This document shows positions 15,934 to 51,701 of a DNA stretch of 64,000 nucleotides, one piece after another (within the stretch, counting starts at the first letter, position 1; the number at the start of each line of letters is the position of its first letter). This stretch comes from Gautieria morchelliformis. Its lineage: Eukaryota; Basidiomycota; Agaricomycetes; Gomphales; Gomphaceae. The stretch is taken from positions 1 to 64,000 of the forward strand of contig WHVA01000437.1 in the NCBI GenBank assembly GCA_015179125.1. The letters are read 5' to 3'. The notes under the pieces were generated by a model. It saw nothing but the letters and a program-made list of their open reading frames with translations, made no database searches and was not told the DNA's origin. A program made the translations under genes and the position numbers.

Positions 15934-15938
15934 GTCAT

Positions 15939-23452: not shown

Positions 23453-24914
23453 TGCTCCACCCAAGTCTCTTTGCAATCCGCGCCCTCGAAGGAGTGACTG
23501 CAGTTGGGGCGGAAGCGGAAATGCTCCGGGATATCCGGAGGCAGTACCGGAATGGAGAGAAGGAGGAGTCGGTGGTGAAGGCAGTGGAGGAACTTCGGAA
23601 AGGGCACTCACGGTCTGTATGGGCAGCGGAATGGTCGGAACGTGATGGACGCACCATGACACACGGGTCGCTGGGCATGCTGGCAGGTGGAAGACACTGG
23701 AGTTAGTGGCTTGGAATTACTGGTGGCCTCAGATGTCCCACTACATTGGACAGTACGTGAAGACATGTGACCTTTGTCTCTGAACCAAAGCACAACGACA
23801 TCCCCCCGTCGGAGAACTTGTTCCGCTCCCAATTCCCGAATCCCGCTGGGACACCATCAGTGTCGACTTCATCGTTGAACTCCCAGAGTCTCATGGCTAT
23901 GACGCGATCATGAACGTCGTGGATTCGGTAAGCAAGGTGTCCCACTTCATTCCGACACACACGACGATCACAGCCCTCGGAGCGGCCCGCCTGTTCCTTG
24001 CACATGTCTGGAAGTTGCATGGGCTCCCAAAGCAAGTTGTTTCCGACCGAGGTCCGCAATTTGTCGTGGAATTGACTCGGGAGCTCTACCGCCTGCTCGG
24101 CATAAAGCTGGCTACCACCACAGCGTACCATCCCCAGGGTGATGGACAGACGGAACGGGTCAATCAGGAGTTGGAGCAATATCTCCGCCTCTTTGTCAAT
24201 GAGAGGCAGGATGACTGGGATGAGTTACTTCCACTGGCGGAATCCCAATACAACAACCATGTCCATTCCGTCACACAACAGACTCCCTTCATGCTTGACT
24301 CCAGACGACACCCGCGGATGGGCTTCGAACCACACCAGGCTGACTCCCGACTTGAGACGGTCAATGAGTTCCGAGACCGCATGGACTCCACCCTTTCGGA
24401 AGCCAAGTCGGCCCTTGCAAAGGCCAAGGATGACATGGCAAGGTACTACAACCAACGCCGGGTTCCTGCCCCGGAGTACCAAGCTGGAGACAAGGTGTAT
24501 CTAGATGCAAGTGACATCCGCACCACACGCCCTTCGCAGAAGCTTGCCCACCGCTACCTTGGGCCCTTCACAGTGACGCGGAGGGTTGGACGGAATGCAT
24601 ACCGCCTCCGACTTCCAATGTCCATGTCCCGCCTCCACCCCGTCTTCAACGTGGTGAAGTTACTCCCTATGCTTGAGGACCCAATTCCAGGTTGGAAGGC
24701 TCGTCCGCCACCTCCGCCGGAAATTGTAGATGGGGAAGAGCACTATGTGGTGGAACAGATCCTGGACAGCCGGTTTGTGCGAGGACGACTCCAATTCCTC
24801 ATGAAATGGGAAGGGTATGAGTACGAGGAGAATTCGTGGGTCCCGGAGCAAGATGTTTCCGCTCCAGAAAAACTCCATGAGTTCTATAGGACACACCCCG
24901 GTGCCCCTCGCTGA
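23453..24914 (+). pseudogene. Element E integrase with chromodomain
   Basis: Resumes pol after the insertion. A small deletion with frameshift near 23648 removes residues just before the HHCC finger (HHDTRVAGHAGR, YWWPQMSHYIGQYVKTCDLC). A TGA at 23781-23783 stands in an Arg position. From 23784 it is open: SVDFIVELPESHGYD, VVSDRGPQFVVELTREL, YHPQGDGQTERVNQELEQYL, LGPFTVTRRVGRNAYRLRLP, then the chromodomain VVEQILDSRFVRGRLQFLMK and WEGYEYEENSWVPEQDV. It ends 70 bp before the LTR. Confidence 0.86.
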
Positions 24915-24969
24915 ATCCTTTCGCTGGCATTTCAATCCCTCGTGTCCCGTGCTTCGAGGACGCAGCACG

Positions 24970-30175: not shown

Positions 30176-30934
30176 TGATGGTTCATCACTGGCCCCATCA
30201 TCTTCCCGACTCAACCCTTTAGGTGTTGGTATGGCCGGAATGCATTCGTGGGACATCCTACCTGTAAATCATGTGGGATCAACCCAGCAGACGAAGAGTC
30301 TGTGCAGGGTAACATGTATGCAGGTCTCAAGGCATGTTTTCTTACATGGGTACCTTTATCCTCTTCCCCTCTGTTGTTTCATGTTCACACTCCTCCCTTC
30401 CTCTATTGCATATACGTTTCATCTATTTGTATCTTGACTGCACACCCCTATCCAACCCTGACTTATGACGGCCTCTTTCCTATTCGCTGATATCATATGA
30501 GCATTCAGTATAGTTTACATTCACATGTATATTCCCCAGTTCAATTATCATACATCTATCTTGTGCAAAACTTGACCTCACTGTGACTATCGTCTTAAGC
30601 CTTCTTCCATAGACTACTATCTTAGGCCAGAGGAGGACTTGAGCACCACTGGTGAGTTTCCATACTTCACCTTCACTACCTTAGCCTTGGTACTATTATC
30701 GGTGCTGTTGGCAAAGGGCTCAGAAGGAGCACCTTCACCGGCAAAAGGATTGTTACTACTTGACAACCTTTCTGTGAGACCTTGTACGTTACATCATCAA
30801 GTATCATGGGCTACTTCGCTACGACTGTAGATAGGGCGAGCTCCATTCAGGCAGCCCTCTTACCTTCTGAACATTTATTGGTTCACCTTATTCGCTGAAT
30901 GACACCCTTTGTTGCACAAGCTATTTGGGCATTC
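30176..30934 (+). mobile_element. LTR of family F (copy F3), left part
   Basis: Same LTR as F2. It is interrupted by element C at the pentamer CATTC and finishes at 45775-45823 (CCTAAAAACCAATCTTGGCA). With C removed it is about 808 bp. No matching target duplication was found around it. Confidence 0.7.
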
Positions 30935-31401
30935 TGTTAAGACCCGTTCCCGAGTCTGGACCTGAGGCCGAGGCCTCGGTTCTCGCTGAACCCTCGGCTT
31001 AACTCAGGTTCCCTATCGGTTCATCATTCACCCTGATCCCCTTCCTAGATAGTCCGGTTCCATTTCTGATGATCGTCCGTCAACCCTGCTTCCTGCTTGA
31101 TACGGGCATTGATGCCCTCTTTCCATTCCTTGCAATTAGTATATAAACCCCCATCATGTACGCTAATTCCTCAGTTCTGATATCGACTTAGATTCCTTGT
31201 ATCTTTCTGCTTCTCCGTCTGACCTCATTCCGAACCTTGGCTTCTAGCCGAATCCATCCCAAACCTGTTTCCTGAAATTAGGGTGGAACACTGTAGTGGG
31301 CACAACCTACAAAGTTGAAGCCAAGCCCCCTGTTTCCAAACTTCAGCTAACCTTGGCTCGGCCCTCAGGTTGAGTCTTAAGTACGACTTACGTTCTTAAC
31401 A
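30935..31401 (+). repeat. Element C left LTR
   Basis: 467 bp, with a TATA-like GTATATAAACCCCC near 31139 and an AGTGGGCACAACCTA word near 31295. The following TATATCAGAACTC (31403-31415) loosely resembles an initiator tRNA-Met 3'-end primer site (TATCAGA core). Confidence 0.88.
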
Positions 31402-31435: not shown

Positions 31436-32512
31436 ATGCCTATCACTAGATCTTACGCCCATGCCCGCGGTAGCCACGTCACCCCGACCATAGAGGCCCA
31501 CTGTGCACCAAGTGCTTCACACCACCCTGAAAACCCCCTGTTCCATCCTATGACAACCCCCCTCCGTCTTCGAACTCGTCTCAACGCCAAGTTATAGGTG
31601 TTGGTCACGGACGTATCAGTGAGGTTCCCGAAGATCCCCGCGGTGAGTCCCCCGACCCTAGCGACCCCAGAGACGGTGGTCATGGTGGCAATAACGACTC
31701 CGGTTCCGAGCACAACTCCGATCCCAATGCAGAGGCCCTGAGACCGAACCCCAACCTGAATGCAGAGGCAGACAGCAAGGAACAGGTTGGGCGCTGAATG
31801 CTCGCGGCTTTGGAAAAGCTTGCCGACAATGGACTCGGTGGAGGAGACAGCGCCAATTCAAAGGCAAAACTTTGGGAACCTGACCAATTTGACGGTTCGG
31901 ACCCGAAGAAACTCCGAGGTTTCCTTCTCCAGTGCATGTTGAATTTCCGTGCCAAACCCCAAGCTTTCCGAGATGGTTCTGCGAAAGTGAACTATTTTCT
32001 GTCCTTCCTCAAAGGGACAGCTCTTGATTCTTTCAAGCCTTTCCTCACTGACGACCCTGTTAACGAGCCCCTCTGGGCCTCGGATTATGGCATCTTCATG
32101 GAAGAGCTTTACCTGAACTTCGGCCCCTACGACCAGGTCGCCAATGCCAAGCTGGAGCCTGAAAACCTCGTCATGAAGGACAGTCACAAGGTGACTTGGT
32201 TTTTTGTCGATTTCTACAGACTTGCATCCATGCTCCAGCACAACGATTTGGCTTTGCATCGCCGAGCATACCTTGCTCTGCTGAAGTGAATCAAAGATGA
32301 AATGGTGCATTTCGACAAACCCCGATCCCTTGACAACCTCCGAGATCTGGTCCAGAAAATCGACCAAAGGTATTGGGAACGCTGTGGCAAAGCCTCTCGT
32401 GAGACTCAAACCACGCCCAAACCTGGGGCCAAGGACAAGTCCAACCAAAACCAAGCCCCTCAGAACAATGAATGTCAGGGTCAAAGTTCCAGCAACTCCA
32501 ACTGTGAGGGCA
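31436..32512 (+). pseudogene. Element C gag, first part
   Basis: ATG 31436 (MPITRSYAHARG) opens a frame that shifts near 31580. The coding-like frame then carries an Asp/Asn/Pro-rich stretch, a TGA at 31795-31797 (expected CGA), and capsid at 31798-32289 (KAKLWEPDQFDGSDPKKLRG, FLLQCMLNF, YFLSFLKGTALDSFKPFL). A TGA at 32287-32289 again replaces CGA (LLK, stop, IKDEM). The same frame continues to 32512 (LDNLRDLVQKIDQRYWER), where element D is inserted. Confidence 0.8.
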
Positions 32513-32884
32513 ACACTAATGACGAAGCCACAACCAAAGATACTCAAGGAGATAAGAGCCGATACTAGGACAATGACCAACTGTGTAGTGGGTATCCTCA
32601 GTTTATAACTCTACCAACAATAGATACATGGGGACTTGCCTGTGTAGTGGGTATCCTCAGAGATCAAGCTGAGGAAACACCACCACACGGGCTACAGTCT
32701 TATAGCGCTGGCAAGGCTTACATAATAGGGGAGATGGAAACTTGTAGAAGGTTACGGAAAGTGACGGAAAGTGACATGTGACGGAAAGTGACATGTGACA
32801 GAAGGTGACGGAAACTGACGGAAGGTGACGGAAACTCATGGAAGGAAATAGAAACTTGTGGAAGGAAACGCGTGAACCCTGACA
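32513..32884 (-). repeat. Element D 3' LTR
   Basis: 372 bp. Contains the TGTGTAGTGGGTATCCTCAG block twice and a run of (A/T)GTGACGGAAA units that is one unit longer than in the partner LTR. Confidence 0.9.
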
Positions 32885-32920
32885 TCACCCCCCTCTCAAT
32901 GCTTGTCGTCCCGACAAGCA
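32885..32920 (-). promoter_or_regulatory. Element D polypurine tract with adjacent palindrome
   Basis: On the minus strand GAGAGGGGGGTGA directly precedes the LTR. A few bases upstream lies TGCTTGTCG-GGA-CGACAAGCA, a perfect 9-bp stem with 3-nt loop. The stop codon of the extra ORF lies in this palindrome. Confidence 0.75.
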
Positions 32921-33492
32921 CAGCTGCCACCTAGCCCCCAACATCCACCGAGACATCGTTTCCAAGTATGCCACAGGCGGGACCACCATCTCTCCTGACC
33001 CTTCCCTTCCTGGTAATGCAGGTCAATGATGAGCTCAGGGGGATTGGGGTCCATGGGCAAGTGCGGCCCTCGGAACCTTGCTCGACGTATTCGCTCTCCT
33101 GCCATGTTACGGAAACGTCGCCCCACCCAGCCTTCGAAAGTGTAGGGGGTTCCACACGGGGGGGTTCCATCGTTGAGGAAGACAGGGTCGCCGATGTAGT
33201 ACGTGTTCTCTCGTCTGTGTCGGGGTCTGAGGAATGCGAGTGCAGGGCGAGTGGGCGCCTGACTCTTCGCTGGTGTGAGGTCCTCAGAGCTGACGGACCA
33301 CTTTGAAGACCATGCGACGTCGAGATCACGGCAGTCAAGCATCCTTTGTAGCTTGGCTTCACTGGCTGCTCTGGATGACGAGAAGCCGGAGAAGTGCAGG
33401 AGGGTGGGATCGACACGTGACATGTTTGGCAGGTCAGAGAGGTTTTGGGTGAAGCTGGGGAGGGCAACAAGCTCAATGGCGGGCGAGGACAT
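32896..33492 (-). CDS. Element D extra ORF, 198 residues, unknown function
   Basis: ATG 33492 to stop at 32896, between the integrase and the 3' LTR, on the same strand as pol. The product has SRVDPTLLHFSGFSSSRAAS, then a helical CRDLDVAWSSKW, an Arg-rich FLRPRHRREN, and TYYIGDPVFLNDGTPPCG with YTFEGWVGRRFRNMAGERIR. The Trp/Arg-rich C-terminus ends in a Cys-rich CLGGCWGLGGSCAC. No membrane helix or known motif is recognised. It has no stop or frameshift, while pol upstream carries at least five stops, a frameshift and a mutated RT site. Its role is unknown. Confidence 0.68.
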   Translation of the reverse strand: MSSPAIELVALPSFTQNLSDLPNMSRVDPTLLHFSGFSSSRAASEAKLQRMLDCRDLDVAWSSKWSVSSEDLTPAKSQAPTRPALAFLRPRHRRENTYYIGDPVFLNDGTPPCGTPYTFEGWVGRRFRNMAGERIRRARFRGPHLPMDPNPPELIIDLHYQEGKGQERWWSRLWHTWKRCLGGCWGLGGSCACRDDKH

Positions 33493-33598
33493 GGTTGATG
33501 GATGTTGTGGGGTCGATGCAGTGGAGGCGAGCGGTCACAGGTGGAGAGGGGATATATAGCTTATCGGAATGAATTGGTTAGGCGGAGGCCGATATCGC

Positions 33599-36500
33599 TT
33601 ATCTTTGGGGTCCTGGACCCTTGACATTATGAGTAGAAGCCCTGCCTGCTGTCCAGTCGAAGAGAGTTTGCCTAGAAGGTTCTGTGAAGTTCTGAAATCT
33701 CTGGAAAGGGAGGGACATGTATGTGGCTGCTGAGATACGCTGAGGTGCCTCTGGGTTCTGCCGGTGAAATTCCTTAATGAGTCGCTTTGCCCCAGAGACA
33801 TCTTTCGCTGGTAGCCAGAGATCGTCGGCAGCTCCATAGCCCTTCCAGCGCACGAGATACTCCAACCTTCCACGGAACATCCTGCTGTCTAGAATCCTTT
33901 CAACTTCATATTCTTCGACTCCATCCCGTATGACAGGGGGGGGGGGTGGAGGGGCATGACGTTCAAGAATTGGGTCATCTTCATATGGCCGAAGCAGGAC
34001 GACAGAGAACACTGGATGTGTGCGACCAAAGGATGCAGGAAGATTTAGACCATAGGCATTTCGTGAGACCACCTTATTAACCGTGTAGGGACCTAGCCAC
34101 TTGTGGTCTAGCTTCTTCATTGGGCGAGTGGTTGTGATGTTTTGTGCATTGAGCCAGACCTTGTCACCAAGCTTATAAACTGGGGCTGCTTTATGGTGCA
34201 CGTCATAGAAGCATGCCATGTCCTCTGCTGCCTTGGACAGGGCTGAACGAGCTTCTCTCATGGCCGCTTCCATCCGCGTTGTGAACTCATCCAGGGCCTC
34301 GAGTCAAGTTTCCCGGACTGGTTCCAGTCCCAGCCTTGGATGTTGGCCACTGTCCAACATGAAGGGTGTAGTCTGGGTTGAGGCATGGATTCGGTTGTTA
34401 TAGGCAAACTCGGCCAAGGATATCCATTCGAACCAATCATCCTGACGCTGGTTGATGAATAGTCGAAGGTATTGCTCAATCTCCTGATTAACCCTTTCAG
34501 TCTGTCCATCAGTTTGGGGGTGATAAGCAGTAGAGGCAGCGACTTTGACACCAAGAAGTTTGTTCAGTTCACGCATGAACTGGGAGATGAACTGTGTGCC
34601 TCGATCACTGATGATTTCTTCAGGGAGCCCATGAAGTTTCCAAACATGATCACGGAAGAGTCGGGAAACTCCCACTGAAGTTACATCTGAAGTGGTGGGA
34701 ATGACATGTGCACGCTTTGAGAGGCGATCAACAACAACAAGGAGAGCATCATAGCCATGACTGGTAGGCAGTTCTACAATCAAGTCAACAGACATAACCT
34801 GCCATCCACGGTCTGGGATACGGTTTGGTAGAAGCTTGCCAATGGGAGAAGCAGGGAAGGTTTTTGTCCGGTTGCACAGGTCACAGGCCTTCACATATTT
34901 TGCAATGTAACGTCCCATCCCAGGCCACCAGTAACTCCGAGCAACTAGTTCAGTGGTTCTCCAACGACCAGGGTGACCGGTGAGAGGCATGTCATGGTGC
35001 GCTTTCACTATGTCATGTCATAGTTTTGCATCAAGCGGCACATACACTTTGTTGTGATAGAGGACAAGCCCATCCTGTTCAGACCACTCTTCTCCTCGTA
35101 AATTGCCAGAGGAGCCCAGTTCTTTGAGAGCCTTGACAACCTTTTCATCCCGGTCTACACAGTTCCTTACTCAATTGAGGAAAGCATCACCTTCACCTGG
35201 GACTAACTGCGCACCAGCCTCTGGGGGATTCGCCTTGATGTGGAACAAGTCAGGGGTAAGTAAGACTTGATTTTGGTTGTCTTCCTCCCCCCGCTTATGA
35301 TCCACGCATCGTGAGAGTGCATCAGGCTTGGCTGAATGACGACCAGGACGATGGATCAGCTCAAAATCAAAGCGAGAGAGGTAGAGTGACCAGCGTGCTT
35401 GACGACAGTTCAGGTTTTGTGCAGTGCGGAAGTAGGTGAGATTCTGATGGTCATTGAGAATCTCAATCTTGTGCTTCGTTCCCTCTAAGATGTGGCGCCA
35501 TTCCTCTAATCCCCGAATCACAGAAAGAAGCTCCTTGTCATGGATGGCATAGTTGCGTTCAGCATCATTGAGGCTTTTGGAGACAAACCCCACAGGCCGC
35601 CATTTGCCATCATCACATAGCTGGGACAGTACTGCTCCTGTGGCATAGGCTGAGGCATCTGTTTCAAGACGGAAATGTTTGTCTTGATCAGGGAGGACAA
35701 GGATCGGTGTTGAGGTGATGAGGAGTTTGAGCTTGTCGAAGGACATTTGCTCTGGGCCATTTGGATCCCAAGACCATTGGGCATCCTGTTTTGTCAACTG
35801 GTTGAGGGGCTTTGAAATGTGTGAGAAGTCTTCCACAAATCTACGGTAGAAGTTGATGAAACCAAGGAATGATTTGACTTCAGTGACGTTACGTGGTATT
35901 GGCCAGTCCCGCACCCCTGCAACCTTGACTGGGTCCATGGCAACCTGTCCTTGAGAGAGGATGAGGCCGAGATACTCCACCTCTAGTTGCTCAAATAGGC
36001 ATTTTTCAGGTTTGAGGTACAGGTTGTTGGCCCGGAGGATTTAAAGGACACGTCATACAATCCTACGATGTTCTTCAAGCGACTCTGTGAAGATGAGAAT
36101 GTGGTCCATGAACACCACCACAACCCCTTCATCGATGAGACTCTTGAAGATGTCATTCATCATCGTCTGGAAGGTTGCTGGGCTGTTGGTGAGTCCAAAG
36201 AACATGACTAGAGGTTCATACAGGCCCCTATTTGTCCGAAAGGCTGCCTTCCACTCATCTCCCTCTTTTATGCGTACATTATTATATCCCCAGCGAATGT
36301 CAAGCTTTGTGAAGTATTTAGCCCTTCCAGCAGCAATCTTATTCATGATGTCTGGAATAAGGGGCAACGGATAGGCATTCTTGATTGTTATATCATTGAG
36401 CTTCCGGTAGTCTTGCACAAATCTAAGACTGCCGTCCTTTTTCTTCACAAAGAAGACTGGAGATGCCATAGGTGACTTGGAGGGATGGATACGATGGCTC

Positions 36501-36601
36501 TTCAGGTTCTCCTCAAGGAAGTTATCCAGTTCCCTTTGCTCAACCGGTGACATTGGGTAAACCTTTGTGCTGAAGGGTTGTGCACCTGGAGTGAGCTCAA
36601 T
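33599..36601 (-). pseudogene. Element D RT, RNase H, integrase and chromodomain
   Basis: One frame from 36601 to 33599 with in-frame stops at 36053-36055, about 36040, 35171-35173, about 35015 and 34304-34306. All but one are TGA at conserved Arg. [42 protein letters not shown], with the active site reading FMDH (36101-36112) instead of YLDD. RNase H: RLETDASAYATGAVLSQ, IHDKELLSVIRG. Integrase: HPGRWRTTELVARSYWWPG, SDRGTQFISQF, YHPQTDGQTERVNQEIEQYL. Chromodomain: YEVERILDSRMFRGRLEYLV, then RWKGYGAADDLWLP. Dead copy. Confidence 0.9.
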
Positions 36602-37560
36602 TGCATGGTCCCAGGGCTTTCGAGGAGGCAGTTGTCAAATGACTCCTTAGAAAACACATCCTTGAACTCCTGGTATGGTTTAGGGACAAGGTCCTCGAAG
36701 GATCTGACTGGTGCAGACTTGCTGGCCCGTTCAGCAAGCTGTTGGGAGACAGTCCGGCCTGCGCCAATCATTTCAGGACTCTCATTCACAAAGATGACAA
36801 AGGTCCTGTCTCCTTCCTCAAGTAGGGAGCGGGTGTGCTGTATGGGAACCTCCTCTTGATTTACACTCTCTTCTGGAACAGTTTCGACTGTGGGCCCTCT
36901 GACAACAGGTCTGCCCCCACATGACTTGGGACAGCATGTCATCTTCACATCTCCTGTACGCCAGTCAACTTCTGGGTTGTGTTCAACAAGCCATGTGTGA
37001 CCAAGAATGATGGCAAGTCGTCCAAGGCTCGTGACAGAGAATGTGGCACGTTCCGTATGATCCCCAAAGGTGCAAATGAGGTCGACTTCTTCCTTGATTG
37101 AGCCAGCCTCATTTGGGGTACCATCAATATTGTAGACGGGGATGGCACGGGGTAGGGGGCGGGTCCGAAGCCTGTGTTCCCTCACAAACTCCACATCGAT
37201 GAACATCCCTGTAGCACCACTGTCAAGGAGGGAGTCAATTGCAAGTGGATGCCCTGTGTCAATGGAGTGGACCTTGAGAGGTACTTTGGTGCATCGGCGG
37301 AGGTCAGCGGTACGGACATATAGAGGGACTGGAAGGTTTGCATTAGCAACTGGAGCGATGGGTTGGGTTTTTGGCATGGCTGGTTTGGTTTCAGTTCGAT
37401 CAGGGATAGGAGAAGGATGCATCATATCGCCTGTGATCCCTATTGTACATGTTTCGAGAACTGAAAACCGATTCGTCGAGCAGGGCATGTCTTTCACCGC
37501 TGACTGGCCTAAAAACCCTTTCCTTCCTCTTGGACAGGGGCTTCCACCTTCTCTTTGCAT
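36602..37560 (-). CDS. Element D protease
   Basis: Frame 37560 to about 36620, overlapping the gag end (37509), as in gag-pol frameshift elements. The retropepsin motif [16 protein letters not shown] lies near 37215, followed by [14 protein letters not shown] and [17 protein letters not shown]. An acidic linker and [13 protein letters not shown] precede a frameshift near 36620 that disconnects RT. Close relative of the element E protease. Confidence 0.82.
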
Positions 37561-38615
37561 TCCTCTATCGCCGCTGCTACAGATTTAGAGACAATTGCTG
37601 CAATGTCTGCCTCTGTGAGGTTTGCACGGATTCGTGGCTTGCGAGGTTCAGGACAGTCTGGTGAAATGTGACCAGGTCTCTTACAGTTGTAGCAGGTTCG
37701 TGTTTCGGTGCGGCGGCGGGATGAGTCAATGTCCATAGGTGTCGTGTTACTGGGTGATGCTGTGGCAACAGGAGCCATAGCAGGAGTGTGGAGTGCTCGG
37801 GCAGGAGGAGGGTGATTAGGGACATGAGGTGTCTGTGCCTTCCTGACCTCTAACAGACGGCGATGATTGCGGTCAATCTGACAGGCTGCTTCCTTCCAGG
37901 CTTTGAGGTTGGATGGAAGAAAGGGCTGGGCGTGGATCTTGTCAAGGATACCTGCTGGAAGGCCACGAGCATAGGCATCCTTGAGTGCCTCATCATTAAA
38001 GCCTGTCCTGCCTGCCAGGATCTCAAATTGAGCCGTGTATTCATCTGCTGACATTCCTGACACCATCCTAAGGTCATGCAGCTTAGTGCGAGCCGTTCTG
38101 GCACGATCTGGGTCACCAAAGGCCTCCTCCACACGTTTAATGAACCCCTCCAGAGTGGATATAGAGGAGATGCCATCAATGACAGCCTGTGTCTCGTTGT
38201 GTGCCCATATCTCCGCAAAGCCTCCCGTCATGAAGGAAAGAGCGTATAGGATCTTTGTGCGTTCATCTGGGAAGGATGCTGGCTGGACAGCGATGGACAA
38301 CTTGATAGACCTGATAAACCCTTCAGTCTCTGCACGGTCTCCATTGAACTTCTCCGGTTCTGCTGCTTTGATAGAGCGAGTAGATGGAGGGACACTGTGA
38401 GGTACTGAGGGCGCAAGGGCTTGAGCAGCAGCAACAGCAGCGTTGGTGGCAGCATTGGCTAAGTGGTCGTGAACGTTAGCAATCTGATTGTGCAGTTCCT
38501 GATTCTGCAGTTGAAGTTGCTGCAACTGCTGTGCTTGGCTGGAAAGGAGGCCTCGAAGAAATGGCCCATGGTCACCCAGGGTGTCCCAGTATGCGTCTGG
38601 GAGTTGGTCTGCCAT
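37509..38615 (-). CDS. Element D Gag
   Basis: 368 residues from ATG 38615 (MADQLPDAYWDTLGDHGPFL). An upstream in-frame ATG at 38753 would start inside the LTR and is less likely. Coiled Gln-rich N-terminus (AQQLQQLQLQNQELHNQIAN), capsid (EPEKFNGDRAETEGFIRSIK, DEYTAQFEILAGRTGFND, LRM/LKAWKEAACQID), then a CX2CX4HX4C knuckle (CYNCKRPGHISPDC). Uninterrupted, unlike pol. Confidence 0.88.
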   Translation of the reverse strand: MADQLPDAYWDTLGDHGPFLRGLLSSQAQQLQQLQLQNQELHNQIANVHDHLANAATNAAVAAAQALAPSVPHSVPPSTRSIKAAEPEKFNGDRAETEGFIRSIKLSIAVQPASFPDERTKILYALSFMTGGFAEIWAHNETQAVIDGISSISTLEGFIKRVEEAFGDPDRARTARTKLHDLRMVSGMSADEYTAQFEILAGRTGFNDEALKDAYARGLPAGILDKIHAQPFLPSNLKAWKEAACQIDRNHRRLLEVRKAQTPHVPNHPPPARALHTPAMAPVATASPSNTTPMDIDSSRRRTETRTCYNCKRPGHISPDCPEPRKPRIRANLTEADIAAIVSKSVAAAIEECKEKVEAPVQEEGKGF

Positions 38616-38676
38616 AGGCTGAGATGAAGGCTGGTTAAGAAAAGTGTGTGGGGTCGTCCTATGAGCTTGATCTTCT

Positions 38677-39040
38677 GTGAGGGCAACACTAATGACGAAG
38701 CCACAACCAAAGATACTCAAGGAGATAAGAGCCGATACTAGGACAATGACCAACTGTGTAGTGGGTATCCTCAGTTTATAACTCTACCAACGATAGATAC
38801 ATGGGGACTTGCCTGTGTAGTGGGTATCCTCAGAGATCAAGCTGAGGAAACGCCACTACACGGGCTACAGTCTTATAGCGCTGGCAAGGCTTACATAATA
38901 GGGGAGATGGAAACTTGTAGAAGGTTACGGAAAGTGACGGAAAGTGACATGTGACAGAAGGTGACGGAAACTGACGGAAGGTGACGGAAACTCATGGAAG
39001 GAAATAGAAACTTGTGGAAGGAAACGCGTGAACCCTGACA
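38677..39040 (-). repeat. Element D 5' LTR
   Basis: 364 bp partner of 32513-32884. It lies directly next to the target copy CCAAC, after which C gag resumes. Confidence 0.9.
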
Positions 39041-39045
39041 CCAAC

Positions 39046-39309
39046 GCCAATGCCGGTAATAGTAACCATGGCAAAGGCAAGGACAAGCACAAAGGGAATA
39101 ACATGTCCGAGGGTCAGAAAAAACCCGACTACGCTAACAAGCTCGGCAAGGATGGCAAACTCATGCCTGAAGAACGCCAGCGTCGCATGGATAACAACCT
39201 CTGCCTAGTTTGTGCGCAGAGTGGTCACCGTGCGAAAGACTGCCCGAAAGCCACGTTGGCTTGGGCTGCATCGGCTTCTGATGGGAAGATGTCCGACAAC
39301 AAAGCTTAA
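39046..39309 (+). CDS. Element C gag, C-terminal part with zinc knuckle
   Basis: Continuation of C gag after D: KGKDKHKGNNMSEGQKKPDY, ADYANKLGKDGKL-like basic linker, then CX2CX4HX4C (CLVCAQSGHRAKDC, near 39204-39245), ending SDNKA at 39309. With D and one CCAAC removed, the reading joins SSSNSN to ANAGNSN in frame. Confidence 0.82.
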   Translation, partial: ANAGNSNHGKGKDKHKGNNMSEGQKKPDYANKLGKDGKLMPEERQRRMDNNLCLVCAQSGHRAKDCPKATLAWAASASDGKMSDNKA

Positions 39310-40582
39310 TCTTCGGCTTCAGGTGCGAAAAAATAATCAGCGACCCTCTGACCTCCACGCAAACCGAGGGTCGCGTTGACTCAACTTGCGCAGTAGGGGA
39401 GGTAAGAATCAACGCTTCTGCTCTCTTTTCTCCGAACTCTCTTGTAATTAGTTTGTCCTCGTCTCTTGTCCCGAACCAAAATTTTAAAGCATTAGTAGAT
39501 TCCGGCTCTACCCATTGTTTCATAGAATCAGTCTTTGTCCTTAAATACACTCTCCGAACTCGTTCCGTAGACCCAATCCCACTCCGTTTATTCCATGGTA
39601 GTACAAATTCGGTAATTACTGAAGCTGTAGAGCTACCTATCTGATTCCCCAATGGTCACACCCATTCCGTAGACTTTTATGTCACCCCCCTTGATTCATC
39701 TGTTTCAGTAGTTCTCGGACACAACTGGCTCACCCGCTACAATCCATTGATTGACTGGGTATTGGGCAGTATTACTTTCTGAACTTCCCTTCCAGGCAGT
39801 CCTGTGGACCCCCCGCCGGCTTCGGCTCACGCCGCATCGGCCGAGCCACCCCCGAGTCTGGTGGCCCCTCGGATTACCCTGCTTAATGCTGCGGCATTTT
39901 ACCGTGCCTGCAAGTTAGAGGGCTCCCAGTGCTTCCAGCTAAATCTGGCGATGCCCGAGAATGAGGCCTCGGCCCGCTCGGCTTCCGCAAAACCCGAACC
40001 TGTGGATCTCAAGGATGTCCCGCCAGAGTACCATGACTTCGCGGATGTGTTCAGCAAGTCCAAAGCTGATACCTTGGCTCCACACCGACCCTATGATCTC
40101 AAGATTGCTCTGGAGGACGGCGCTATGCCCCCTCAACCTCCGTTATATTCACTCTCTACCTTGGAGCTTGCCACGCTCCGGGCGTTCATAGATGAGCATC
40201 TGAATATGGGTTACATTCGGCCCACTTGGTCTTTGCATGGAGCCCCCATCCTCTTTGTCAAAAAGAAGAGCGGTGAACTTCGGCTTTGCGTCGATTTCTG
40301 AGCACTCAACAAGATTACGAAGAAAGATTGCTATCCACTTCCGTTAATTACCGACTTGTTGGATGCACCCCAAAAGGCTCGGATCTACACAAAAATCAAC
40401 CTTCAGCATGCATTCCATCTTGTACGAGTCACCGAAGGTGACGAGTGGAAAACAGCTTTCCAGACCCAGTACGGCTCTTTCGAATGGCTGGTCATGCCAT
40501 TCAGCCTGACCAATGGTCCCACGGTTTTTCAACGTTTCATGAATGACGTCTTCAGAGATATGCTTGATGTATGCGTCGTCAT
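39310..40582 (+). pseudogene. Element C protease and RT N-terminal part
   Basis: The protease frame from about 39400 has FKALVDSGSTHCFIESVF and [17 protein letters not shown]. TGAs at 39642-39644 and 39780-39782 replace CGA. RT: EYHDFADVFSKSKADTLAPH, YIRPTWSLHGAPILFVKKKS, GELRLCVDF, TGA at 40299-40301 (again Arg expected), then [41 protein letters not shown] solo LTR interrupts it at 40583, just before the catalytic YLDD. Confidence 0.85.
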
Positions 40583-41125
40583 TGTTACGATACAATCCTT
40601 CATAAGGTTGACTGAGCTCGGAGGTGAAACCCGAGGTAAGGTCTGAGGTTATGGGGCAAGGTTTGATAGGGAAGTCAGAGAGGGACTTGGCTTCAGCTTA
40701 TGTGCTGCGCTGACCCTATGCACAAGTCCCAACTTCAGAGGTAAACGAATAAGAGGCGAGGTTTGGCTCAAGAGGCGAAGGCTTAGAAACTAACTAAGGA
40801 TCAAGAGGTACGATAGTCGATTTTCAGACTGAGGAATAGGAATGCATACAGGGGGGTTTATATACGAGCGAGGGTAAGGGTCAGGGGCGAGCATATTGGG
40901 GGGGGGGGTTCAGGGCGAGGTGAATATACAAGTGATGCATGATGGAACGGGATCAGTAACTAGGGGAATTTGGGCATGGGATCAAGGTCAGATATGAGCT
41001 GAAGCTCAGGCTCGGGCTTGGGCGCAGGCTTAGAATCACAAGTACTCGGGCACGAGTATCACAAGGCTTGGGCTTGGAAAAAGGGTTGTACTGGTAAGTA
41101 ACTGGCCAAAGGCCGGGTCCTTACA
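40583..41125 (-). mobile_element. Solo LTR inside C RT
   Basis: 543 bp between GTCAT (40578-40582) and GTCGT (41126-41130), a target duplication with one mismatch. On the minus strand it runs TGTAAGGACCCGG to TCGTAACA, with TATA-like GTATATAAACC near 40860. The start resembles the C LTR (TGTTAAGACCCG), so the families may be related. A run of ten G lies near 40905. Confidence 0.8.
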
Positions 41126-41130
41126 GTCGT

Positions 41131-41932
41131 GTACCTTGATGACATACTCATCTAGTCCGACGACCCAGTCAAACACAGGGAACACGTCCATGAAGTATTG
41201 TGGCGTCTTCGGAAACACGGCCTCTACACCAAACCCGATAAATGTGAATGGCACCATGATTCCATGGAATTCCTCGGTTATATGCTCTCTACCTATGGAT
41301 TTACCATGTCCAAAGACAAAGTCCAGACTATCCGTGATTGGCTTGAACCCAAAAGGTAAAAGACATACAGTCCTTCCTTGGCTTCGCCAACTTCTATCGC
41401 CGCTTCATCTTCAATTATTCCGACATCACTGTTCCCCTCACTCGGCTTACCCGTAAAGGCACACCATGGGCATTTACCAAAGAATGCCGAAAGTCCTTCA
41501 ATCACCTTAAGGAGACTTTCACTTTGGCTCCAATCCTGTCACACTGGATTCCCGACCGACCTATGGTTGTAGAAACTGATGCTTCGGATTATGCCCTCGG
41601 TGCGATTCTGTCTTTGTTCGATGACGCAGGCAAACTACATCCCGTCACCTTCCACTCTCGGACATTTTCCGGTGCCGAACTCAATTATGATGTCCATGAT
41701 AAAGAGCTACTGGAAATCTTTGAAGCATTTCAATGTTGGAGACATTACTTGGAGGGCTCTGGCCCCCCTATTGACGTTGTCACTGATCACAGAAAACTTG
41801 GAGTACTTTTCCACCACTAAGTTGCTAACCCGACAACAAGCCCGCTGGTCCAAGTTCCTCTCCCAATTTAACATCATTATTTGGTTCCGTCCCGGAAAGC
41901 TCAGTACAAAACCCGACGCTCTAACTAGATGA
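41131..41932 (+). pseudogene. Element C RT end and RNase H
   Basis: Begins VYLDDILI (catalytic YLDD) and a TAG. Then HREHVHEVLWRLRKHGLYTK, MEFLGYMLSTYGFTMSKDKV. A frame change near 41350 leads to SFLGFANFYRRF-type sequence. RNase [37 protein letters not shown]; a frameshift near 41800; then [15 protein letters not shown] and [17 protein letters not shown] at 41930-41932 replaces CGA. Confidence 0.83.
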
Positions 41933-43586
41933 TGGGACATCTACCTTAAAGAGGGAGGTAATGACTATGGCTCAGTCAATCTGCAAAACTTCTGACCGAT
42001 TTTCAAAAATCAACAACTATCGGAATCACTCTGGGCAACTTATCTGCTTGCACCCATCCTCCAAGCAAGCACTATGATGGACTCCGAAAAGCTTCATGCC
42101 AACATCTTAGCCAATCTGGCATCCGACCCTGTTGCCTGCCGGCATCTTGGTGATAGTTCCGACCTGAGATGGATGCAAACCGACAATGGCTTCCTACTAC
42201 GTTCCTGACGCCGACGATCTCTAGCTCCGAGTACTCCAGTATAAACATGACCACATACTCTTGGGACACTTCGGCCAAAACAAGACCCTTGTGCTGATCC
42301 GCCGGGAATATACCTGGCCCGCAATTCAGTCTTTCGTCATCAACTTCTGCAAGTCTTGCACCACTTGCTCCCATTCAAAGTCCTAGCGTCACCGGCCCTA
42401 CGGCACCCTCAAGCAGCTCCCGATACCCGAGCAACCATGGAATTCCATCTCTATGGATTTCATCGAGCAGTTGCTGGCATCCTCAGGATTCACTGCGATC
42501 CTCATGGTAGTCTGCCACTTAACCAAGAAGAGCATCTTCATTCTGACGTACGACACGATCACTTCCGCTGACCTAGCCCGCCTGTTTGTCTTGCATGTGT
42601 TCTCGAAGCACAGTGTCCCAAGCCATGTGACATTGGACCGAGGTTCGGAATTCGTATCCCACTTCTTCTGTTCCCTCGGCAAAGCTCTTGACATAAACTT
42701 GCACTTTACCTCCGGATATCTCCCCGAAGGCGATGGTCAAACCGAACATGTAAATCAAACTCTCAAACAATATCTCCAGGTATATTGCAACTACCAACAA
42801 GACAATTGGTCCGAGTTGCTCCCGCTTGCCGAGTTTGCGTACAACAATGCTCCCAGTGCCACTACTGGCATTTCGCCATTCTTTGCCAACAAAGGCTACA
42901 ACCCAAACTTGACAGTTCACCCTGAAAGGGACCTCACTTCCTCTCGGGCCCGAGACTTCACAGTTGACCTTGACCAGCTTCACGCGGCCTTGAAAGAGCA
43001 AATCAAATCCGCTCAATCTCAGTACCAAGTCTCGGCTGATGCACGTTGTGCTCCCGCCCCCGAGTTCACGATTGGATTCTTAGCATTTGTAAAAGCACAG
43101 TTCTTCTGGACAACCCGGCCCTCAAAGAAGCTGGCTGAAAAATACCTCGGCCCCTTCGAGATCATTGGCCAGGCCGGATCCCAAGCTTACATCCTACGGC
43201 TTCCGGACAGCCTTTGGGCAGCCCACCCGGTCTTCCATGTCTCAATGCTCAAACCCACAACCCCGAACACCATCCCGAATTGGGTTCAGTCTTTGCCACC
43301 TCCAGTTGAGATCGACGGCAAGACAGAGTACGAGATTTCCGAGATCCTTGACTCCAAGATCGACCAACGCCACAGACTTTGTAACCTCCTGTACCTCGTC
43401 CGATGGGCTGGTTATGAAGGTACCAATGAGGAAACGTCATGGGTCCTCGTGACCAAGCTCGGCCATGCATCCGAGAGTGTGACGGACTTCCACTCGGCCT
43501 ACCCTGGCAAGCCTGGACCATGGTTCCTTGCGAGCTTCGGCTCCCCAGTTTCTCTTCACTCATTATATGGTCACTTTCTTAGTTAG
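41933..43586 (+). pseudogene. Element C integrase with chromodomain
   Basis: The finger region 41933-42450 is frame-broken. From 42453 the frame is open: ISMDFIEQLLASSGFTAI, SHVTLDRGSEFVSHFF (catalytic Asp), GYLPEGDGQTEHVNQTLKQ (catalytic Glu), LLPLAEFAYNNAPSATTGIS, FWTTRPSKKLAEKYLGPFEI, HPVFHVSMLKP. The chromodomain follows: EISEILDSKIDQRHRLCNLL, then YLVRWAGYEGTNEETSWV. The 1.1-kb open stretch contrasts with the decayed finger. Confidence 0.87.
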
Positions 43587-43781: not shown

Positions 43782-45183
43782 TTAATCATCCCCCATAGTC
43801 GCATCCCCATCCACATCCTTTCCCTCATCATCCCCTGATCCCACATCCGAACCCCCGTCTCCCATATTATCTGCATCCCCATCTCCATTTTCCAACCCTG
43901 AACCTGTACCCATACCGGCCTCTGCTCTTTCCTCTTCCTTGTCCTCTTTCTCTTTTCCTTTTTCCCTGTTTCCTGAACCCAATCCCCCCACGAACCCGAA
44001 CCCTTCCCAATCCGCACCCGAACCTGAACCCGAACCTGAACCCGAACCTGAACCCCACACCCCGGCTTCTTCAGCCGCACCTGTCCACCACTGAACCCGC
44101 TTGCTGAGTCACGAGTTTTGCCGATGAGTTCTCTCGACAAACTCCAGTATTCCCTGGAGTGTATCGTGCATGCGCTCTTCGAGCACATTCTGTTGAGCGA
44201 GGAGCTCCCGAATGGCCGCCAAGTCCTGATCTCCTGAGAGGCCCGTTAATTTGGGCTGCTCGGCCTTGGTAGGTAGCCCTGATCCCATTCCGGATCCCGA
44301 TCCCGATCCCGAAGGACCCGCCTTGATCTCAACCGACGGCTTGGCTCCCGTCGGCTTCACTGGCATCGACCTCAGCGTTTTGACCACCGGCACCTCAGTT
44401 CTGGCCCCGACCCTATGCTTACGCTTTCCCTCGGTAAAGCTGCAATGTACTTTGCGCGTATTGCAGTCCCGACACGCCATATTAGTCCCCCGTATGCAAG
44501 GGACTTTTTGCCTAAAGCAGTTGTCACAAGGGAATTCCTAAAAAAAAAAAAAAACAAGTCAGAACCCAAGCTGAGCCATAACAGAATACTCACTTCTTCC
44601 TCTTCCAACTCCTCCTCCATCACTTTCCGTTTCTTCGCCCCCATTGACTTCGGCTTCATCTTCACTTGGTTCCGATCCTGAGCCTGCATAGACATGAGGA
44701 TCCGAGCCTTCGCAACTGCCAAATCCATGACCACTAGTTCGCGTGATGGAATACAGACCTCCTGGCTGACCGTGGCTTGCCGCTCCCGAAACTCCTTAAT
44801 TATATCATCAAGACGTTTTTTTAAACATGCACGGGTAGCTACCTCAGCGTTCTTTGCCTCCTCCTCTCAGGCCTTCTTCTTGGCCTCCCAAGCCTCTTCT
44901 TTGGCTTCCTGAGCCTTACACGCTTCTTCCTCGGCTCCCGAGCCTTGCGCTCCTCTTCCTCAGCCTCCGCTTTGCATTGCCGTTCCCGTTCCTCCTCAGC
45001 TTCTTTCGCTTTCCGTTCCTCATCCTCCTTCCTTTTCTTCTCCGTCGCATCCTTGCACTCCTTGGCAAGGCGATGTTTCTCCTTCAATTGTTCCCTCTTC
45101 TTCTCAGCCTCTCACTCCTCACGCTCAAGTTCCACGTCGAGTTCCTCGACTGTGGGTTCCTGGGTGTCTTGGATGTCTGACAT
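43782..45183 (-). pseudogene. Antisense gene of element C with Zn2Cys6-like cluster
   Basis: Lies between integrase and right LTR on the opposite strand. ATG 45183 (MSDIQDTQEPTVEELDVELE). Exon 1 (to 44594) is a Glu/Lys/Arg-rich coiled coil, then VCIPSRELVVMDLAVAKARI and a basic stretch. The intron 44538-44593 (GTGAGT...TTTTAG) keeps phase. Exon 2 starts EFPCDNC and holds CX2CX6CX7CX2CX6C at 44448-44528, a spacing like the fungal Zn2Cys6 binuclear cluster. Then come a Pro/Gly/Ser linker, a helix (LAAIRELLAQQNVLEERMHD), Gly-Ser repeats and an acidic end (DEGKDVDGDATMGDD). The ancestral product was about 448 residues. Lesions: TGA at 45112-45114, 44867-44869 and 44109-44111, each in an Arg context, and one frameshift near 44935. 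The layout suggests a DNA-binding regulator. That is inference. Confidence 0.72.
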
Positions 45184-45309
45184 GGGAAATTGATGGTGAT
45201 GGGAGGAAGCAGAAGGAGATGTGAAACAAAGCTTATGTAATACCCTCATCCCGGCAATCTCTGGGATCTCACTTATGGCCTCATGGGTTTGGCCATAAGG
45301 GCGAGGTAC

Positions 45310-45769
45310 TGTTAAGACCCATTCCCGAGTCTGGACCCAAGGCCTTGGCCTCGGTTCTGGCTTGGGAACCTTCGGCTTAACTTGGGTTCCCTATCGGTTC
45401 ATCATTCACCCTGATCCCCTTCCTAGATAGTCCGGTTCCATTTCTGATGATCGTCCATCAACCCTGCTTCCTGCTCGATACAGGCATTGATGCCCTCTTT
45501 CCATTCCTTGCAATTAGTATATAAACCCCCGTCATGTACGCTAATTCCTCAGTTCTGATATCAACTTAGATTCCTCGTATCTTTCCGCTTCTCTGTCTGA
45601 CCTCATTCCGAACCTCGGCTTCTAGCCGAATTCGTTCCCAAACCCGTTTCCCAAAATTAGGGCGGAACACTGTAGTGGGCGCAACCTATGAAGTTGAAGC
45701 CAAGCCCCCTGTTTCTGAACTTCGGCTAACCTCGGCTCGGCCCTCGGGTTGAGACTTACGTTCTTAACA
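45310..45769 (+). repeat. Element C right LTR
   Basis: 460 bp partner of 30935-31401, ending TTCTTAACA next to target copy CATTC. Clearly diverged from the left copy, for example in the first 80 bp. Confidence 0.88.
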
Positions 45770-45774
45770 CATTC

Positions 45775-47387: not shown

Positions 47388-50300
47388 CTAGGGTGTGTCT
47401 ATGCCTGCATGGGTGGGGGCTTGTATCAATGTGTCGGGATGCTCCTCACCAAGGACCCTCTTCCTTTCCTCCATGACTTGAATCTCCAGATCTTCAGCAT
47501 CCTTCCACTGGCCCAGCCTTTGATAGGTTTCAACAAGGCTGTCCATGGCAGTCAGTGTGTCAGGGTGCTCCTCACCAAGGACCCTCTTCCTTGCCTCCAT
47601 GACTTGAACCTCCAGCTCTTTAGCATCCTTCCACTGTCCCAGACTCCCACAGGTTACAGCAAGGTTGGCCATGGCAGTCAGTGTGTTGGGATGCTCCTCA
47701 CCAAGGACCCCCTTGCTTGCCTCCATGACTTGAACCCCCAGCTTTTCAGCATCCCTCCACTAGCCCAGACTCCAATAGGTTGCAGCAAGGTTGGCCATGG
47801 CAGAAAGTGTGTTGGGATGCTCCTCACCAAGGGCCTTCTTCCTTGCCTCCATGACTTGAACCTCCAGCTGTTCAGCATCCCTCCACTGGCCCAGACTCTG
47901 ATAGGTTACGGCAAGGTTGGCCATGGTGGAAAGTGTGTCGGAATGCTCCTCACCAAGGACCCTCTTGCTTGCCTCTATGACTTGAACCTCCAGCTCTTCA
48001 GCATCCCTCCACTGTCCCAGACTCCCATAGGTTGCAGCAAGGTTGGCCATGGCCGAAAGTGTGTTGGGATGCTCCTCACCAAGGACCCTCTTGCTTGCCT
48101 CTATGACTTGAACCTCCAGCTCTTCAGCATCCCTCCACTGGCCCAGACTCTGATAGGTTGCAGCAAGGTTGGCCATGGTGGAAAGTGTGTCAGGATGCTC
48201 CTCACCAAGGACCCTCTTCCTTGTCTCCATGACTTGAACATCCAGCTCTTCAGCATCCCTCCATTGGCCCAGACTCCAATATGTTGCAGTAAGGTTGGCC
48301 ATGGCAGAAAGTGTGTCAGGATGCTCCTCACCAAGGACCCTCTTCCTTGTCTCCATGACTTGAACCTCCAGCTCTTCAGCATCCCTCCACTGGGCAAGAC
48401 TCCAATAGGTTGCAGCAAGGTTGGCCATGGTGGAAAGTGTGTCAGGATGCTCCTCACCAAGGACCCTCTTGCTTGCCTCCATGACTTGAACCTCCAGCTC
48501 TTCAGCATCCCTCCACCGGCCCAGACTCTGATAGGTTTTAGCAAGGTTGCCCATGGCAGTCAGTGTGTCAGGATGCTCCTCACCAAGGACCCTCTTCCTT
48601 GCCTCCATGACTTGAACATCTAACTCTTGAGCATCCTCCCATTGGCCCAAACTCAGATAGGTTTCAGCAAGGTTGGCCATGGCAGTCAGTGTGTTGGGAT
48701 GCCCCTCACCAAGGACCCTCTTGCTTGCCTCCATGACTTGAACCTCCAGCTCTTCAGCATCCTTCCACCGGCCCAGACTCCAATAGGTTGCAGCAAGGCT
48801 GCCAGTGGCAGTCAGTGTATCAGGATGTTCCTCTCCAAGGTCCCTCTTCCTTGCCTCCATAACCTTAACATGCAGCTCCTCAGCATCTGTCCATCGCCCC
48901 GCTTCATCAAACACTTGTGCAAATTTATTTGCCATGTTTAGATCTGCACATTTTATATGTAGCTCATTAATATGAGAGAGAAGAGTTCTCCTAAAGGCAT
49001 AGTCCTCTGTGCTATTTTCAAATGGGATAGAAAGTGCTAGTATCTGCATCATACATCCTTGGTTATACTCCTGCTCTGCCACCTCCAGTCTTTCTCTAGC
49101 CCAACCATGCACTAGTGGATGAAGGAAAAATGTGTTGTCTCCCTCATCAGAGCTAACCAGTGAGTAAGAAGTTAATTCATTAATGACCTCCTGAAATTGG
49201 AAGTCACTCCAGCTACCATCTGCAGTTTGAAAGTTATGCAGAAACTGTTTTGCATCATCAAATGGCCCATCTGGATCTATGAGAGCTGCCCTCTGAAATA
49301 TGCTCTTGGAAATACCCCTATAATGCAGAAATGCACATAGGTGTAGCAGGCTTGCTGCTTTGGGACCTAGCCTTTTAAAGCTGATTTCCCATGTTGTGTA
49401 TACTGCCCACTGATAATTATCTGTCATCTGTACAGAGTGCTTGCTCATCAGCTGAACCCGATCCTTCTGGAGAATATTCAGGTATTCATTCAAGCTGCAC
49501 CCCTTTGAGATATAGGCACCTGCTTGTACAATGGCAAGGGCAAGGTAACCAAGTTCTTTGGCAATCAGAGCTGCCATCCCATGATCCTTTGTAGAACCTT
49601 TGGCTGTAGAGAACTGAGGAGCAAATGAATTGCTTCATCTGGGTTCATGCCTGAGACATGACAGTTGGAGGTGGGTGCATGCACACGACACTCCACATTG
49701 CGAGTTGTCACAATGATGTTTCCATGCTTGCATGCTGGGAAGTACTTTTGAAGGTTTATATCTCTGTCATCAGCATTGTCCAGGAAGAGCAACCACCCTT
49801 GGCGTTGTCCAGAAAGCCAGAGAAGAGCATCCTCAGCAGTCTCACTAATACCCCCTTCCTGAGCAATGTCCTCTAGGCCAGACTCTATAGTGGATACACT
49901 ACTTGCATCCACATAATAGACCCTCCAAAAGCTAAATATAAAACAGATTAGTTGAAACATAACAGACCTGGGTAAACTACACCACCATTGATAAAACCTA
50001 TCAATGAATGTCAACCCAATCTGTGTTTTTCCCACCCCACCAAGCCCATACAAGACAAAGATGTGCTGTTCCTCCTTAACAGTGGAGGTCTTATCTGGGA
50101 AGAAATAACCCTTAAGTTGCAAAAGGATATCGACTCTTCCAGTAAATCTGCGTGTTGGTGGAGGACAAGCCTTACGGCAAGCTCTCTGTTTACCTGATAG
50201 TCGACTAACAGTGCCTGCACCTATAGTATCTACCATAAAACATAAGTCATCAGCTGTGAGCCATTGCAAATTGTACGCACTGAGGTGTGCCACAGGTATC

Positions 50301-51701
50301 ACTTCCCGGCGTTCCCTGAGGGCAATGACAGCAGCTGTTACCATCTTGTCTACCTGTCCCCGCTGAAGATGCTGTAATGTGTGTGTTGTCACCTCAGGTA
50401 ACCTTTCCCACTGTGCCAATGTTACACTTTGCATTCCTTGCTCCACATTGAACCGGAAGTAGACGTTCGGTGCAGATCTGAAGCGCTGCTCAGTTTCCTC
50501 TGCTGTCGCCTCACACTCCGTGGTGATCTTCTTCAATACCTCAGCTACACTTAATGGTATGATGTTATTAAACAGACTAGGTGCTGGCAGGCTGGCAGTG
50601 GTGACATGTCCAGTGCCAATGCTGACGACGCAAGCAATATGTTGGTGCGGAAAGATGCGTTCTGCTTCTTTGAGGATTTGCCTGATCGGATTGTTGCAAC
50701 CCAGGCCAGCATCAACAAAGGGTTCACGCATGGGTGGTATGCCGATGAAAATCCGTTTGAAAAACGTAGGAGCGGCAGATGTAGCACGGGCGGCCTCCCA
50801 TATAGCGCAGTCGAATGATTCGTACTTGCCGACGCTGTACGTACGAAAGAGGCGGGATGTGCTCATGTTATTTGCGGGCATCGCGCAGACGAAACTGGGC
50901 TACGGTCAGCTATGTACCAAGTCATGAACGAGCGGCAACGTGACATACGTTTTGCACACGTCTCTGCTGGGTCTTGGATCGAACATGCGTGCGTTAAGGT
51001 CACCAGTCGATTCCTGGATGATTGCCTTGATAGCCTTCTCCAAATGGCTAGCCTTGAACATTCCGTCCTTCCAAAATGGTTTCTTCTCCGAGAAGACTTG
51101 TGAGGCGAATGTGCCATAGGCTTCGATCGCTTTATCTACGGGCAGGCGAAGGCGGCCCAGCATGAGCGCTATGAGCCTGCATGGAATGTATTAGCGAGCG
51201 ACGGCGATGGAGAAGAAAGTAACTTACCCGCCTGTACTCGTACCGCAGATTAAGTCGAAATATTCACAAGGAAGGGGGGCGGTGGGTCGCCCTTCTGCGT
51301 GCTGGATTCTTTGCATGATTTCTTGTAGTATGATGAGTTCGGACAAGCCGCGGATGCCGCCGCCATCTGCTGAGGGTGTCAGAAAGCGTCATATAACATG
51401 CATGAAAACATTACCGAGTGATAGCAACCTGAGCCCGGCACCTCGATGCTCATCGGTTTGCGTCATTGGGATAGATTCGATTCCCGGTCTCGCTGCAGCA
51501 AGACCAGAAGTAGATAGCGATACGCCCTATTCATGAAGATTCGTCAGATAGTCAGTCCCCTGGATTGTCTAGCGTCCTGGAATAAACTTTGCTTACCTCT
51601 GAGGATACCAAAGACGGTTTTACGATCGGCGGCGGCGTTTCGTCATGCCTGAATGAAGGGGAAGCTTTGGCGATCTGCTCGTTGGAGGAGTAAGAGGTCA
51701 T
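47388..51701 (-). CDS. Patatin-NB-ARC-TPR NLR-like gene, probably disrupted
   Basis: Exons on the minus strand: 51701-51597, 51526-51415, 51366-51228, 51176-50949, 50894 onward, with consistent phases. The patatin phospholipase has DGGGIRGLSEL (oxyanion hole), GTSTGG (nucleophile Ser, split by an intron) and DAGLGCNNP (catalytic Asp). NB-ARC: P-loop GLGGVGKTQIG (near 50000-50035), LLFLDNADD and IIVTTRN; a small intron may lie near 49927-49980. A winged-helix-like part precedes at least 12 TPR units of 42 residues. Fungal STAND proteins of this build are thought to act in non-self recognition and cell death. Lesions: a frameshift near 49607 between NB-ARC and the next part, and TAG at 47760-47762 (Gln in the repeats), with three more repeats behind it. 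An upstream in-frame ATG exists at 51761. Function after these lesions is doubtful unless they are assembly errors. Confidence 0.82.
47415..48930 (-). repeat. Twelve-unit 126-bp TPR-coding repeat array
   Basis: Each unit encodes 42 residues with a core LGEEHPDTL, then NLAATY and an acidic DAEELEVQVME helix. The units look more than 90 percent alike in DNA by eye. Differences cluster at few codons (Trp/Gln/Gly before SLG; Ala/Ser/Thr around the MANL segment; ARK/ASK/TRK). This is a tetratricopeptide family repeat with signs of recent unit duplication or homogenisation. Confidence 0.88.

Follow-up and report, generated by a model that had tools for sequence, protein, structure and literature searches.

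A two-exon antisense gene with a Zn2Cys6-type cluster in a chromovirus lineage of Gautieria morchelliformis

Between the integrase and the right LTR of a retrotransposon in the truffle-like fungus Gautieria morchelliformis there is a further gene, which reads in the opposite direction. It has an intron, and it encodes a cysteine cluster of the kind known from fungal transcription factors. An earlier note on this DNA described it as a cargo gene. This raises the question if the gene is a passenger or a part of the element, and what its protein might do.

The element and its antisense gene

The window, which is the whole stretch of DNA that was analysed, measures 64,000 nucleotides (contig WHVA01000437.1). 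The retrotransposon is called element C here. Its parts are, in window positions:

30935..31401, plus strand: 5' LTR of element C, with ends TGTTAAG...CTTAACA; the target duplication CATTC is ahead of it at 30930-30934
40302..43586, plus strand: decayed pol of element C, with RT pieces, RNase H at 41347-41820, and integrase plus SH3/chromodomain at 42387-43586
43782..44537, minus strand: antisense gene exon 2, with zinc cluster, basic patch, linker, long helix and acidic tail
44442..44528, minus strand: CX2CX6CX7CX2CX6C, the Zn2Cys6-type cluster, inside exon 2
44538..44593, minus strand: antisense gene intron, 56 nt, phase 0, GTGAGT...CTGAC...TTTAG
44594..45183, minus strand: antisense gene exon 1, with charged helical N-terminus and acidic run; its ATG is at 45183
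45310..45769, plus strand: 3' LTR of element C, with CATTC behind it at 45770-45774

Element C is a Ty3-type chromovirus: its LTRs enclose an integrase with a chromodomain behind it. The element is flanked by a 5-bp duplication of its target, CATTC. In Pfam, the integrase stretch (42387-43586, plus strand) matches SH3_Tf2-1 at 61.9 bits, against a cut-off of 30. The window copy is decayed, and its matches to rve (22.1 bits, cut-off 32.6) and Chromo (19.4, cut-off 25.1) fall below theirs. The K2P distance between the two LTRs is 0.075, made up of 29 transitions (17 in CpG context) and 3 transversions, so this is an old copy.

Other sequence lies inside it. A second Ty3-type element, reversed, is nested at 32502-39048; its LTR copies are 97-98% alike, and it has gag with a zinc knuckle on the minus strand. 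The RT of element C is broken by an insertion at about 40585-41128, which by eye starts with TGTTA and ends with TTACA, and is perhaps a solo LTR. Beyond element C, at 47388-50899 on the minus strand, lies an NLR-like Patatin / NB-ARC / TPR gene with about 11.6 near-identical 126-bp TPR repeats. TPR_10 scores far over its cut-off there; Patatin, with 24.3 bits for a cut-off of 27.7, and NB-ARC, with 19.2 for 23.5, fall short.

The antisense gene runs from 45183 to 43782, on the strand opposite to element C, and sits between the integrase end and the 3' LTR, as the earlier note had it. The phase-keeping intron that was described there is also found, and the exon translations confirm the charged N-terminal part and the acidic tail. 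In full, the protein consists of a charged N-terminal part, an acidic run, the Cys cluster, a basic patch, a Gly/Ser-rich linker, a helix and the acidic tail. The cysteine spacing had been read correctly, with a start at 44448 that was six bases short of the true span. What the earlier note missed, in taking the exon pair as coding, is that the window copy is dead. It has in-frame TGA codons at 45112-45114 and 44867-44869 in exon 1 and at 44109-44111 in exon 2, as well as a frameshift near 44937 in exon 1. The protein has no match in the three other integrase-bearing stretches of the window (15934-16710, 23796-24968 and 33743-34846).

A broken copy is what one might expect from a chance open reading frame opposite constrained sense sequence, or from a host gene that was captured and now decays as neutral cargo. 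This can be judged from other copies of the gene.

Copies, intron and selection

Exon 2 was used as a query against the 122-Mb, 1113-contig Gautieria morchelliformis assembly. This gave at least 150 scored matches, many of them with open frames. Fifty loci were read. Thirty of these form a first subfamily, being the best 30 of at least 150 protein matches; the window copy is one of them, and the remaining 29 have 75-83% identity. The second subfamily consists of 20 loci hand-picked at 41-48% identity, all without a stop inside the match. Both sets were chosen by protein similarity, which is a possible source of bias. Between the subfamilies protein identity is about 40%, and the cysteine spacing is identical.

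Intact relatives, which the earlier note proposed to look for, exist in this same genome: four copies (L004, L006, L016 and L034) encode, once spliced, a complete protein of 419-435 aa. L049 gives a fifth long product, of 429 aa, with an altered end and one missing Cys.

The gene travels with the element. The LTR of element C is found upstream of it in 23 of the 30 first-subfamily loci. An integrase match is nearby in 25, of which 24 are antisense and downstream and one (L022) is an other-strand fragment. LTR and integrase occur together in 20. In the second subfamily, 19 of 20 loci have the antisense integrase downstream, and L046 has none. Starting from the integrase gives a similar picture. 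Among the matches listed, 24 integrase relatives have at least 78% identity, and 22 of these have an opposite-strand antisense-gene match at most about 3 kb downstream, as read by hand; the exceptions are C771, at a contig edge, and C638, for which no antisense-gene match is listed. By contrast, 80 integrase matches at 71-73% identity have no antisense-gene match within 6 kb among the matches listed. The antisense gene therefore marks one lineage. The more distant lineage would either have no such gene or have one too different to see. It is also the more intact one, with several open frames over 1200 aa.

An integrase tree of 25 rows separates the two subfamilies with support 100, and antisense and integrase distances correlate (rho 0.72 and 0.76). 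Together this means that co-inheritance prevails. 'Cargo' is thus too weak a label for this gene, which is co-inherited with the integrase as a standing part of the element lineage.

Public protein searches found three relatives, all from Gautieria morchelliformis (Gomphales), and none outside Gautieria, which in itself would suit neutral cargo. All three have the look of gene models built on copies of the element; in two the cluster is incomplete, and in one a Cys is changed.

The antisense frame is clearly under constraint. Pooled pairwise dN/dS, a check the earlier note had suggested, is far below 1, at 0.196 for the 30 copies and 0.190 for the 20. Resampling of copies gives 0.163-0.234 for the first subfamily and 0.173-0.211 for the second. 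Neutral simulations with mutation bias have means of 0.58-1.0 and never go below 0.40. The other frames are at 0.98-1.41, except for the mirror frame, which has its third positions in common and is lowered too, to 0.27-0.30; taken by itself, this would suit a chance frame. The nearest independent pairs, which hold most post-insertion decay, are at 0.308 (15 pairs) and 0.238 (10 pairs), with pairs closer than 1% excluded. Where copies are matched, the antisense gene is at 0.168 and the integrase at 0.273 (n=11), or at 0.166 and 0.303 (n=7). The constraint extends to exon 1, of which the last 75 codons show 0.278 (30 copies) and 0.217 (19 copies, with L041 excluded).

No sense frame across the antisense region is open in any of the 30 first-subfamily copies. 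In the second subfamily, one sense frame is open in 2 of 20 copies and the other two in none. Closed sense frames, constraint across two diverged subfamilies, a conserved intron and complete copies already contradict a chance frame or neutral cargo, and we regard that explanation as very improbable. The antisense gene is real, conserved and under purifying selection.

It could also be that the antisense transcript itself is active, as antisense RNA or as an RNAi trigger on the element, with the protein being less important. From its position, such a transcript would cover the integrase end and the 3' region, and would pair with genomic RNA. Yet third positions account for 51-56% of the differences, and pS exceeds pN by a factor of 3-4. 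RNA pairing would not demand such constraint on amino acids, which makes this explanation an improbable one.

Introns of the GT-AG type parse in 29 of 30 first-subfamily and 17 of 20 second-subfamily copies (46 of 50), with lengths of 46-62 nt. These lengths are spread over all three classes modulo 3, so the exon frames agree only with the intron removed. Lying antisense to the genomic RNA, the intron would escape splicing before reverse transcription, and could in this way persist in the element.

The gene also stands out for how far it has diverged. Non-CpG divergence, followed along an alignment of eight copies, is high over the whole antisense gene, and lower in the LTR and integrase on either side. 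The ratio of antisense to integrase non-CpG divergence is 2.27 for 14 copies and 2.68 for 8 copies. This island spans about 800-2450 in L006, and the corresponding region of other loci in the first subfamily. Synonymous sites are raised there as well, with pS 0.35 against 0.18 in the integrase of matched copies. Module exchange, older diversity or faster evolution may each be the cause.

The zinc cluster and the leader

Within this diverged protein the cysteines are well conserved. Each of the six is kept in 90-100% of copies in both subfamilies. At these six positions the majority residue has a mean share of 0.972 in the first subfamily and 0.975 in the second; the means for all columns are 0.871 (P 0.013) and 0.793 (P 0.002). 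In an alignment of 13 and 11 copies (A3), the subfamilies have a common majority residue in only 72 of 157 columns, and these include all six Cys. Exact CX2CX6CX7CX2CX6C is present in 25 of 30 first-subfamily and 17 of 20 second-subfamily copies, and this agrees with the CX2CX6CX5-12CX2CX6-8C spacing of the Zn2Cys6 class. A stricter PROSITE-like pattern fits 0 of 30 and 13 of 20.

With E values up to 1 allowed, 23 of 25 domain copies match Pfam Zn_clus (PF00172), the best at 1.3e-5. L034, at 21.5 bits, is the one copy displayed over the cut-off of 21. Five of eight longer pieces match as well (best E 0.0039); the scores shown, 16.1 and 16.4, the latter for the window copy, are below the cut-off. 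All nine PDB matches from Foldseek are Zn2Cys6 factors. Judged by its sequence, the protein carries a Zn2Cys6-type cluster of the PF00172 family, and the earlier assignment holds. It also has a long helix at 98-154. No second fungal transcription-factor domain was matched in Pfam.

A selected protein with a DNA-binding type of cluster does not have to be a transcriptional regulator. It might be a chromatin tether for the integration complex, or serve target choice or anti-silencing; the cluster would then hold it on DNA, and its helices and acidic tail would make protein contacts. The dN/dS constraint would fit this equally, and the rapid divergence that the whole gene shows from lineage to lineage would suit a host arms race as well. 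On the other hand, Pfam matched no feature of known tethering or silencing-suppressor families, and the Zn2Cys6 class and the position off the genomic RNA would favour a regulator made from the integrated copy. We think such a non-transcriptional role possible, if rather unlikely.

Three features ahead of the antisense ATG are of interest:

45184..45309, minus strand: leader from antisense ATG to 3' LTR, 126 nt, a likely antisense promoter / 5' UTR
45272..45299, plus strand: perfect 9-bp inverted repeat with 10-nt spacer, a candidate operator or RNA hairpin
45297..45309, plus strand: purine-rich tract adjoining the 3' LTR, by eye a probable polypurine tract

The chance expectation for the inverted repeat in the window is 0.03, allowing up to 3 mismatches, and as a hairpin it comes to -13.7 kcal/mol. 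It could be parsed in 35 of the 36 copies aligned. In 23 of these it is perfect, in 11 it has a single mismatch, and in one there are two. Its 8-bp core is exact, and at the same position, in 26 of the 50 loci. The repeat adjoins the probable polypurine tract on the upstream side, and is common to both subfamilies, whose LTRs and antisense genes have diverged. Between the subfamilies, identity is 87% in the 75 leader columns that adjoin the LTR, 64% in the remaining leader and 79% at the LTR end. Special conservation is thus confined to the part near the LTR. The whole leader is at 76%, and the ORF start at 41%. Four misaligned loci (L034, L036, L040 and L049) are not in the leader counts. The repeat may serve as an operator, belong to the promoter, or form an RNA hairpin at the polypurine tract. 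As a regulatory binding site it is putative, which leaves room for the non-transcriptional role.

A possible regulator, and known systems

The explanation we favour, and consider fairly probable as a whole, is that the gene is a standing antisense accessory of a Gautieria Ty3-type chromovirus lineage, and that it encodes a nuclear, dimeric DNA-binding regulator much like HBZ and the APH proteins of deltaretroviruses. Position, antisense orientation, splicing, DNA-binding class and long helices all fit this. The integrated copy would be transcribed antisense from a promoter of its own, as the earlier note also supposed. This promoter would lie in the 126-nt leader, on the antisense side of the 3' LTR, or in both. 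A single splice in vivo would give a protein of about 430 aa, with a long helical charged N-terminus, acidic and basic patches, a Zn2Cys6 cluster, a second long helix and an acidic tail. Having bound zinc, this protein would most likely sit on DNA as a nuclear dimer, and adjust how the element, or some sites of the host, are transcribed. The sign of the regulation and its target are guesses.

A more specific version is that a dimeric Zn2Cys6 regulator, antisense and spliced, arose convergently in this lineage, as a fast-diverging module of which each variant recognises its own family versus rivals. Fast divergence under purifying selection would be expected if each variant tells its own element family from others. 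This version we put forward tentatively, as one that may well not hold.

Antisense genes in retroelements are not new. The available part of PMC10186651 describes HBZ of HTLV-1 and APH-2/3/4 of HTLV-2/3/4 as antisense genes by the 3' LTR with a spliced transcript. The Gautieria gene similarly adjoins the 3' LTR of an integrated retroelement, with splicing deduced from sequence. HBZ is described there as a nuclear regulator of DNA-binding class, and the Gautieria protein has such a class by its sequence. HBZ is however a bZIP protein of an infectious animal retrovirus, with a demonstrated 3' LTR antisense promoter and repression, whereas the Gautieria protein is of the Zn2Cys6 type, comes from a fungal chromovirus and is predicted from genomic sequence. 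No homology is suggested. Pfam gave no bZIP match, so the gene is compared with HBZ and not filed as HBZ.

Plant Retand elements, and also Grande and RIRE2, have an antisense ORF with a TRP28 domain in the interval between pol and 3' LTR, according to the available part of PMC11963269. There too the ORF is conserved across a Ty3 lineage, with possible DNA binding. Retand is a non-chromovirus plant lineage, unlike the Gautieria element; Pfam gave no match to TRP28 (PF04195) in the Gautieria protein, and zinc terms are absent from that part of the paper.

In its six-Cys spacing, basic loop, PF00172 and structural matches, and helix after the cluster, the protein resembles fungal Zn2Cys6 factors like Gal4, Put3, Ppr1, Hap1, Leu3 and Pho7. 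It differs from these in being encoded on the antisense strand of a retrotransposon, and in the long charged helical N-terminus ahead of its cluster. Element C for its part has RT, RNase H, integrase with chromodomain and LTRs, like other fungal chromoviruses. It differs in having the antisense gene from those in the available parts of PMC3248453, PMC3411680 and PMC2864245, where the terms 'antisense' and 'zinc' are absent. Among the matches listed from the full-text literature, there is no spliced antisense gene of DNA-binding class in a fungal chromovirus.

Deltaretrovirus antisense regulators were thus known already, as were antisense ORFs of plant elements without an assigned function. If the favoured explanation is true, the antisense-regulator strategy arose again in another kingdom and with another fold, and the role of antisense ORFs between pol and 3' LTR would become testable in fungi.
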